A DNA stretch of 64,000 nt, from assembly GCA_003605055.1 (NCBI GenBank), contig QZKP01000032.1:62001-126000 (forward strand), given 5' to 3'. Positions 13,025-13,532 of the stretch are shown in pieces. Origin of the DNA: Desulfarculus sp. (GTDB lineage Bacteria; Desulfobacterota; Desulfarculia; Desulfarculales; Desulfarculaceae). The notes beneath the pieces are model-generated. The model searched no databases. It was not told the origin of the DNA and worked only from the letters and a program-made list of their open reading frames with translations. Numbering within the stretch: position 1 is the first letter of the stretch; the number at the start of each line of letters is the position of its first letter. The position numbers and the translations under genes are program-made.

Positions 13025-13055
13025 AAAAAAGCCGCGGACTTTTTTCGTCCGCGGC
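13025..13055 (-). terminator. Intrinsic terminator acting as attenuator
   Basis: On the minus strand GCCGCGGAC and GTCCGCGGC form a perfect 9-bp stem (13031-13055), followed by six T residues. It sits between the leader peptide and the aminotransferase ATG. Its 5' arm can pair instead, over nine bases, with CGTCCGCGG inside the leader-peptide reading frame (about 13090-13099), giving mutually exclusive antiterminator and terminator structures. It could also end transcripts arriving from the upstream 13242-13532 gene. Confidence 0.85.
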
Positions 13056-13079
13056 GGGAGTGGCTGTTGCTGCCTGGGG

Positions 13080-13148
13080 CTAGGTGGCCTCCGCGGACGA
13101 GCGGTCCCGGAAATAATAATAGGCGCTAAATCCTCTGGTCAGAGGCAT
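13080..13148 (-). CDS. Attenuator leader peptide, 22 residues, Tyr-Tyr-Tyr-Phe
   Basis: A 22-codon reading frame begins ATG at 13148 (MPLTRGFSAYYYF...) and ends TAG at 13080-13082, with GGGAG about 11 bases before the ATG. It contains three consecutive TAT (Tyr) codons at 13113-13121, then TTC (Phe), and an earlier TTT (Phe). TAT looks rare in this GC-rich genome, so the run is noteworthy. The antiterminator arm starts 14 bases after the last TAT. A ribosome stalled there would leave the arm free, and one reaching the stop codon would cover it. This is the geometry of known trp/phe/his attenuators. The function is inferred and has not been tested. Confidence 0.8.
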   Translation of the reverse strand: MPLTRGFSAYYYFRDRSSAEAT

Positions 13149-13174
13149 GTCCCTGGGCTCCCGAATTTCGCGCT

Positions 13175-13203
13175 ACGTTACCATCGCCCTGGTTGGCGGT
13201 CAA
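13175..13203 (-). promoter_or_regulatory. Promoter of the attenuated aminotransferase transcript
   Basis: On the minus strand TTGACC (13198-13203) is separated by exactly 17 bases from TAACGT (13175-13180). The expected start, near 13168, is about 20 bases before the leader-peptide ATG, which gives a compact leader as in classical attenuators. The -10 match is weak. Confidence 0.5.
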
Positions 13204-13241: not shown

Positions 13242-13532
13242 CTACTCGTGCATGATGGCCGGGCCCATCTCCTTGAAGGAGAAGTTGTAGAACACGTTGT
13301 GCCCGTTGTAGTCCAAGACCCGCAGGTCATCTTCCTGCTTGACGTCATTGACGATGGAGTCGTACTGGCCGCCGTATTTTTTCCGGACCAGCTCCAGGCT
13401 GAGCTCATAGGCAATGAATTTCATGATGCCCTTGCGCGCCAGCTTCTCTATGAACTTGGGTTCATTGAAGGAGCTGTAACTGGTCAGGACCAGAATAGGC
13501 CCGGTTCCAGTGAAGATAATTCCCGCTTTCAT
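13242..13532 (-). CDS. Small conserved cytosolic protein of unknown function
   Basis: A 96-residue protein beginning MKAGIIFTGTGPILVLTSY, with GAGGAGGT upstream of the ATG deciding the start; a longer in-frame upstream start is rejected. It has no signal peptide or membrane segment. The sequence (FIEKLARKGIMKFIAYELSL) looks like a compact alpha/beta domain. I have the impression of similar short proteins in other sulfate reducers but cannot name a family. It is separated by about 90 bases from the secreted 13624 gene and by the aromatic leader from the aminotransferase. Confidence 0.65.
   Translation of the reverse strand: MKAGIIFTGTGPILVLTSYSSFNEPKFIEKLARKGIMKFIAYELSLELVRKKYGGQYDSIVNDVKQEDDLRVLDYNGHNVFYNFSFKEMGPAIMHE

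Follow-up and report, generated by a model that had tools for sequence, protein, structure and literature searches.

Gene organization of the locus

The window analysed here is a 64,000-nucleotide stretch of DNA from Desulfarculus sp. (contig QZKP01000032.1, positions 62,001 to 126,000). Its minus strand encodes, at positions 12999-11821, a pyridoxal-phosphate aminotransferase for which we propose an aromatic substrate. A first-pass annotation, made from the DNA letters, had described a generic aminotransferase; the protein is now identified as a member of NCBIfam NF005305 (PRK06836), scoring 557.7 bits against a cut-off of 376. A gene for an MtaB-like tRNA methylthiotransferase (11799-10519, minus strand; best match TIGR01579, 334.0 bits, under the cut-off of 357.05) follows 21 bases downstream. 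No terminator-like site was found in the gap between the two genes, and mtaB is the next gene at 15/17 orthologous loci of the family Desulfarculaceae, L017 and L019 reaching the contig end at that point. Because of the short spacing, the terminator-free gap and the retained gene order, mtaB probably shares the control of the aminotransferase gene and is probably co-transcribed with it.

Just upstream on the same strand (13535-13242) lies a gene for a 97-aa protein without a Pfam or NCBIfam match. It occupies this position at 15/17 loci of the family, and no match to it was found at L011 and L024. Two further minus-strand genes (14265-13624 and 15054-14344) encode proteins without a Pfam match, and have TTGACA-type promoter-like sites upstream (14314 and 15099).

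Components of the leader region

The region between the 97-aa gene and the aminotransferase gene (13203-13025, minus strand) contains the parts of a transcription attenuator. The promoter given in the first-pass annotation is present, with TTGACC at 13203-13198, a 17-base spacer, and TAACGT at 13180-13175. The latter is preceded by TG, resembling an extended -10 element. This assignment comes from reading the sequence; a strict promoter scan of the window made no call at the site. GGGAG (13162-13158) probably serves the leader ORF as its ribosome-binding site, and a purine-rich stretch stands 5′ of the start codon in most relatives. The ORF, MPLTRGFSAYYYFRDRSSAEAT, has 22 codons, running from ATG at 13148 to a TAG ending at 13080, and has counterparts at 15/17 orthologous loci of the family. 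Within it, the conserved element GATTTA (13132-13127), recognized by sequence comparison, stands shortly before the control codons TAT TAT TAT TTC (Tyr Tyr Tyr Phe, 13121-13110). Both the leader ORF and the codon run proposed in the first-pass annotation were found.

The ORF also includes arm 2, the putative antiterminator strand CGTCCGCGG (13099-13091). The first-pass annotation had correctly recognized two mutually exclusive hairpins, and had placed this arm at 13090-13099, one base too long. Eight bases separate arm 2 from the stop codon, within the distance of about 8-10 bases previously suggested. An intrinsic terminator sits between the leader ORF and the structural gene, and its coordinates bear out the perfect 9-bp stem and six T residues described before: GCCGCGGAC (13055-13047) and GTCCGCGGC (13039-13031) enclose the loop GAAAAAA. 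Its 3′ strand, arm 4, makes up the segment 13039-13025 together with the T6 tail (13030-13025). Arm 3, the 5′ arm of the terminator (GCCGCGGACG, 13055-13046), can pair with either arm 2 or arm 4. Since arm 2 is complementary to arm 3 and has GTCCGCGG in common with arm 4, it is a rival of arm 4 for pairing with arm 3. GGGAGG (13011-13006) is the likely ribosome-binding site of the aminotransferase gene.

The site was compared with chance using a purpose-written scanner, which requires a terminator preceded by an arm able to pair with it and, ahead of that arm, a short ORF in which Tyr, Phe or Trp fills at least 3 of 5 codons. The scanner passed 1 of the 29 terminator-like sites in the window, the 13203-13025 leader, and across 200 dinucleotide-shuffled windows it passed a single site; it was devised with the site already in view, and the relatives provide the independent test. 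It is insensitive in its strict form, reporting 6 of the 15 aminotransferase leaders among L001-L023 (L001, L009, L010, L011, L013 and L014). The duplex that arm 2 of the window leader forms with arm 3 has a predicted energy of -21.9 kcal/mol, which was matched by 0/1000 shuffles of the leader segment.

Conservation of the leader in Desulfarculaceae

The window belongs to genome G000, whose nearest named relatives are five MAGs (80-83% protein identity), three of them named Desulfarculaceae. Desulfocarbo indianensis (73%) and Dethiosulfatarculus sandiegensis (64%) are more distant; both carry the leader. Our family sample consisted of 20 genomes including G000. A full-length ortholog with ≥60% identity was found in 17 of these; the three others are 71, 71 and 54% complete. 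The 5′ flank of the gene was examined for all 17 orthologs, and a leader consisting of an RF-x-x-Tyr-run peptide, arm 2 and a terminator is present in 15 of them. At L022 (genome G009) the promoter and a hairpin with its T residues are kept and the leader ORF is absent, while nothing resembling the leader lies upstream of the ortholog at L024 (G012). In G020, a genome of the same order, no leader was found in the 500 bases 5′ of the gene. The terminator-like hairpin of L022 stands directly after the promoter, and G009 still has an aromatic frame, YYFSYFYFT, before aroF (L201).

The comparison with related genomes that had been proposed as a check came out in favour of the first-pass reading: relatives retain both the Tyr run and the pairing potential of the arms, with compensating changes. 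The leader peptides of relatives include MHREFRFIRYYYYPGNGFAEAC, METRRFNGYYYFPDPGSAEAA, MRWMAQRFSYYYWLSRHRCVRRA, MISSNGRFSRYYFYYQRRCVRWP and MGARRFTSYYYWYLPQGSARTP. Their Tyr-rich runs take forms such as YYYF, YYYY, YYYW, YYFYY and YYYWY, and leaders of genus g7 have the shorter runs FYY, FHYY, FLYY and YY. The T run is poor at L018 and L019. In all, the 15 whole leader ORFs contain 47 Tyr and 28 Phe codons. TAT accounts for 40/47 of the Tyr codons in leaders versus 59/242 in the aminotransferase genes of 14 relatives, and TTT for 20/28 of the Phe codons versus 61/280, although the relatedness of the leaders means that their codons cannot be counted as independent observations.

At the 16 loci cut for alignment (that of the window and L022 included, L024 not), TTGACC lies 5′ of the gene in 16/16, followed by an invariant TGnTA at the -10 position, and GATTT[AT] precedes the Tyr codons in 15/15 leaders (A in 14); both strings were used to cut the leaders, which in part guarantees that the aligned segments contain them, and on reading the 5′ flanks they are correctly placed at each locus. 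The slightly longer element CGATTTA (in the window GGATTTA, 13133-13127, minus strand, read as GGA TTT A) is conserved at the base level in all 15 leaders, also in those that encode a different amino acid there. CGA is a rare Arg codon, contributing 7/255 Arg codons in the relatives' genes, though it is part of CGATTTA. The element recurs in some Trp and Opp leaders. The leader cassettes may share a common descent, which would be the simple reading.

Covariation of the alternative helices

In the eight leaders of the genus, 97.2% of cells in the antiterminator helix are paired, compared with 31.9-47.2% when the strands are slid by 1-3 columns. Two pairs of this helix changed on both sides, and its covariation score was reached by 0/500 shuffles; its count of pair types is not unusual, being reached by 247/500. 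The terminator helix of the same leaders is 95.0% paired, with a covariation score reached by 8/500 shuffles and an unremarkable number of pairs changed on both sides (reached by 79/500). Over all 15 leaders the terminator is 90.7% paired, four pairs changed on both sides, and the score was reached by 0/500 shuffles. The shuffles ignore relatedness, so these covariation figures are not probabilities. In L011 and L013, GTCCGCGG is replaced by GTTCGCGG in both arm 2 and arm 4, and arm 3 carries the matching substitution; in L009 the same replacement affects arm 4 alone, as a G-U pair. Conservation of the antiterminator is weaker in other genera than among the eight leaders of the genus: the helix of arms 2 and 3 is often bulged there, and in 5 of the 15 leaders (L015, L017, L020, L021 and L023) its folding was matched by >5% of shuffles.

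A model built from the eight genus leaders only (R3) was then run on 42 loci, not all of them distinct places, of which seven have a leader of another genus and 35 do not. It matched 5/7 of the other-genus leaders at the right place with E values from 1.7e-7 to 0.0021. The remaining two, L018 and L019, were matched at the right place with chance-level E values (0.44 and 0.66), and L017 gave an additional opposite-strand match (E 0.76). The single match among the 35 loci without the leader, at L030 (E 0.054), proved on reading to be an IWYFYV leader before a chorismate mutase gene, which precedes the aminotransferase gene.

These data bear on whether the hairpin is simply the terminator of the 97-aa gene, with the leader ORF arising by chance. 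The 97-aa gene has the same orientation and its end is at 13242, and terminator-like sites are common, with 29 in the window. Against this, a conserved promoter stands between the 97-aa gene and the leader, the leader peptide recurs at 15/17 loci, arm 2 covaries with arm 3, and the shuffled windows yielded just the one site. We rejected this explanation on the strength of the promoter, the arm covariation and the shuffled-window scan, and regard it as extremely improbable. A T-box or another Rfam family was likewise rejected: an Rfam search of the window gave no match at gathering score, and the T-box model (RF00230) had no match in 20/20 family genomes.

Geometry and proposed mechanism

The last Tyr codon begins 11-22 nt 5′ of arm 2 in the 15 leaders. 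The stop codon begins 3-8 nt 3′ of arm 2 in 13 of them, and 5 nt 5′ of it in L018 and L019. We calculated how a ribosome footprint at different positions would mask the pairing. With the footprint at the stop codon, pairing between arms 2 and 3 fell to zero in 15/15 leaders. When it was placed on the first or the last Tyr codon, whichever gave more pairing, 8.8-10.0 pairs formed before arm 4 exists in 8/8 congeners. The best values in other genera were 9.1 (L018), 8.7 (L019), 5.9 (L021), 4.3 (L017) and 3.8 (L016), and the model fits poorly in L023 (1.1 pairs) and L020 (0.7 pairs). The terminator of L023 also scores poorly, with 1.5 pairs when the ribosome is at the stop codon. In the genus, both the spacing and the masking calculation are consistent with a ribosome that covers arm 2 at the stop codon and frees it at the control codons.

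Without a ribosome, arms 2 and 3 pair in the model in the window leader (8.6 pairs) and in several others, so an untranslated leader would be expected to read through. When the full-length RNA was folded with the first Tyr codon covered by the footprint, the terminator was preferred in 14/15 leaders (the exception being L023), which implies that the switch must be kinetic. The minimum free energy structure of the window leader has a hairpin taking in part of arm 2. A covarying hairpin with the Tyr codons in its loop was considered and is not claimed: it can be drawn in 14/15 leaders, and the advantage of native over swapped flanks reached no more than p 0.047. In this respect the leader may differ from the trp, phe and his attenuators, as a separate 1:2 pause hairpin is without strong support here.

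Of the features that mark a ribosome-mediated attenuator, a leader ORF with a codon run, an intrinsic terminator and an arm 2 that excludes it are found at the locus. We consider it very likely that 13203-13025 controls transcription by ribosome-mediated attenuation in the manner of trp, phe and his, with mainly Tyr control codons, acting on a likely Tyr/Phe aminotransferase gene. RNA polymerase would start at TTGACC/TAACGT, and a ribosome would begin translating the 22-codon leader. With enough charged Tyr-tRNA it would reach the stop codon and cover arm 2, leaving arm 3 to pair with arm 4, and transcription would stop at the U run. When charged Tyr-tRNA is short, and probably also charged Phe-tRNA, the ribosome would wait on the TAT codons with arm 2 free. 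Arm 2 would then pair with arm 3 while arm 4 has yet to be transcribed, permitting read-through into the aminotransferase gene and probably mtaB. The parts, their conservation, covariation and spacing are read from sequence; termination and its relief by uncharged tRNA are what we infer.

Comparison with known attenuators

The leader peptide of enteric pheL is rich in Phe codons, and the gene it controls encodes chorismate mutase-prephenate dehydratase. The intrinsic terminator and the probable aromatic pathway gene downstream are features the present leader has in common with pheL/pheA and trp. The pheL/pheA family is marked by a Phe-dominated leader before pheA, whereas here a run of mainly Tyr codons stands before an aminotransferase gene, in a Desulfarculaceae host. 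The first-pass annotation had likened the locus to the enteric pheA and trp leaders; the layout agrees, while the resemblance to pheL is looser because the control codons are chiefly Tyr. A Tyr-run leader is unusual among attenuators, and we know of none among the classic enteric ones. T-box leaders of the Tyr type sense tRNA charging through a choice between terminator and antiterminator, and do so without a leader peptide. The window leader would likewise read charging by an antitermination choice, its leader peptide setting it apart. The main survey of proteobacterial attenuators is reportedly that of Vitreschak et al. from 2004.

Charging-dependent masking and read-through are established for trp and his, as set out in PMC1183508. 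The layout corresponds to regions I-IV as given there. The cognate codon run, the stop codon placed for masking and the exclusive hairpins are also features of pheL/pheA and trp/his. The nearest relative that we found in print is uORFC-13-1, a motif upstream of aroF in Acholeplasma (PMC8632094). There, too, a short ORF containing an aromatic codon is followed by a terminator and then by a gene of the aromatic pathway; the motif differs in phylum, in gene, and in having at least one Phe codon rather than a Tyr run (PMC8632094). PMC8632094 also describes uORFC-8-2, upstream of cysS in Rhodobacterales, for which ribosome-mediated attenuation was proposed. It resembles the window leader in its tandem codons of one amino acid within a conserved uORF, and differs in that these are Cys codons and the gene encodes a tRNA synthetase (PMC8632094).

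Open-access literature searches over titles and abstract starts gave, among the matches listed, no Tyr-codon attenuator and no Desulfarculaceae leaders, which is weak evidence; a text search on prephenate aminotransferase gave no match. The main text of the Naville and Gautheret survey (PMC2965389) does not mention tyrosine, aminotransferase or Desulfo, the text of a delta-proteobacterial reconstruction (PMC545781) does not use 'leader peptide', and that of a leader-gene paper (PMC4833913) contains neither tyrosine nor Desulfo. The mechanism is thus of a known kind, and the Tyr type on an aminotransferase gene, along with the wider suite of leaders described below, looks new.

Aromatic leaders before other genes

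A second model (R1), built from the 15 aminotransferase leaders, was searched in the family genomes and in 63 genomes of the class. Within the family it found weaker places beyond its own leaders, many of which read as further attenuators; others (L177, L181 and L185-L188) look like chance. In G000 itself, a leader with the run YFYFSFYYF, also passed by the strict scanner, precedes aroF-pheA-tyrA. The strict scanner passed Trp leaders before trpD in G004, G007 and G011. In G001, G003 and G006 it passed Trp leaders that precede a gene for a TrpB-like protein; a further leader of the latter type was seen by eye in G002. A YYYYY leader stands before another DAHP synthase gene in G005 (strict scanner), and the leader of its counterpart in G007 has a mixed aromatic run (by eye). 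Two tandem Trp leaders, each with a terminator-like hairpin, were seen by eye before trpD in the window's genome (G000:C1:37302-37538, L169, minus strand) and at L182, where the strict scanner passes the first leader only.

The family has 24 pheA loci, 19 of which include aroF. A frame with at least six Tyr/Phe in nine residues occurs within 420 bases before aroF in 19/19, by a search without background control that required neither start codon nor terminator; by the strict scanner, 10 of the 19 have a full attenuator. At L194 a full attenuator lies directly before pheA (strict scanner). TrpR, like the T-box, had no match in 20/20 family genomes. A TyrR-like helix-turn-helix protein (TIGR04381) scored above cut-off in 7/20, G000 not among them, so we do not claim that TyrR-type control is absent.

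These leaders also bear on what the Tyr run senses. Nascent-peptide arrest by free Tyr or another ligand, in the manner of TnaC, instead of sensing through tRNA charging, could account for the R-F-x-x-Tyr spacing and the CGATTTA bases, which are kept beyond the needs of codon sensing. We consider it improbable, as the Tyr run varies (YYY, YYYY, YYFYY, FHYY, FLYY) along with its flanking residues, and the codons of related leaders follow the gene, with Trp before trpD and Phe/Tyr before aroF-pheA. The reading of Tyr-tRNA charging by the ribosome is preferred.

Leaders in three genomes of genus g7 with the peptides RFSYYFSW, RFSYYFSG and RFSFFFSG (L171, L172 and L173; strict scanner) precede a gene for a metallo-beta-lactamase-fold protein, and at L171 an Opp/Dpp-type permease gene is also downstream. 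This arrangement suggests control of a peptide transporter by aromatic limitation.

Outside the family, R1 found four places in the 63 class genomes (L189-L192), each with a Phe/Tyr leader by eye. The gene is cut by the contig end at L189, a DAHP synthase gene is downstream at L190, and at L192, where the leader also passed the scanner, the DAHP synthase is of the aroFGH type. The fourth, L191 (G031:C40:8485-8613), has the leader MLTSWRMRIYYFMYYFFGTEVCPGV before genes for ADTH synthase and DHQ synthase II (3-dehydroquinate synthase II), and would thus put bacterial genes for the archaeal-type entry to the shikimate pathway under a predicted aromatic attenuator.

Likely substrate of the aminotransferase

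We examined 27 loci of class relatives outside the family (L025-L037 and L118-L131), six of them with <1.1 kb of upstream sequence. In 5/27, all belonging to genus g11, pheA or its chorismate mutase part lies directly upstream on the same strand, preceded by aroF in three of the five. It was not seen next to the aminotransferase gene in the other 22/27, including the sixth g11 genome (L125).

A relaxed scan for a short aromatic ORF before a terminator in 80 named loci gave 29 ORFs, and one on the opposite strand. Seven are Desulfarculaceae leaders and three are false, L041, L044 and L045 being the tail of the 97-aa gene; the scan missed L043, which carries the leader. The remaining 19 come from loci that we call Syntrophorhabdus-type (L072, L074, L080-L086, L089, L094, L100-L103, L105, L109, L111 and L117), a label under which 6/19 are so named, 2/19 are named Syntrophobacterales and the rest are named less exactly. 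These leaders start 1.34-1.39 kb upstream of the matched aminotransferase gene and have Phe/Tyr runs like FFYFYYF. A second aminotransferase, 43-48% identical to that of the window, is encoded between leader and match in 19/19; that of L082, the only one scored, reached 515 bits for NF005305. L087 and L090 also have tandem aminotransferase genes, their upstream sequence being missing.

The first-pass annotation had predicted a role of the enzyme in aromatic amino-acid synthesis, and the pheA adjacency in g11, the aromatic leaders on paralogs and the leader before aroF-pheA support it. Together, the aromatic suite, the paired aminotransferases of the Syntrophorhabdus-type loci and the g11 gene order indicate that the enzyme most likely makes Tyr/Phe, catalyzing the last transamination, with 4-hydroxyphenylpyruvate/phenylpyruvate, or prephenate, as the predicted substrate. 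The attenuator could instead be real and the aminotransferase not aromatic biosynthetic, Tyr charging signalling another role, such as that of a broad aspartate-type enzyme or one of aromatic degradation. NF005305 gives no substrate name, and the nearest solved chain, 3ele, is named just 'Amino Transferase'. G000 also has other aminotransferases that could make Tyr/Phe, among them two hisC above cut-off and an enzyme that is closest to the aspartate aminotransferases but scores under their cut-offs, and pheA adjoins the gene in only the five g11 loci. On the other side stand the aroF-pheA-aminotransferase order in g11 and the aromatic leaders on the same enzyme family in a second lineage. For degradation, induction by Tyr would be expected from established attenuation logic, and not by its lack. 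We judge a role outside aromatic biosynthesis unlikely, and keep to a Tyr/Phe biosynthetic aminotransferase.

More broadly, we lean towards the view that a group of former deltaproteobacteria, comprising Desulfarculaceae, certain further families of that class and the Syntrophorhabdus-type bacteria, run their aromatic genes by leader-peptide attenuators, TrpR and T-boxes playing no part in Desulfarculaceae. The codons would be matched to the branch: Phe/Tyr for aroF-pheA-tyrA, Tyr for the second DAHP synthase and the aminotransferase, and Trp, in some cases in tandem, for trpD and the trpB-like gene. If so, aromatic leaders would mark the PRK06836 enzymes of those groups as aromatic aminotransferases, giving a likely substrate for a family annotated merely as 'pyridoxal phosphate-dependent', and leader codons would offer a readable key to the effector and to amino-acid regulation in hard-to-grow anaerobes.

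Most of the Syntrophorhabdus-type leader peptides have an LHPG-like tail, and in six of them the antiterminator arm chosen by the scanner is located there.
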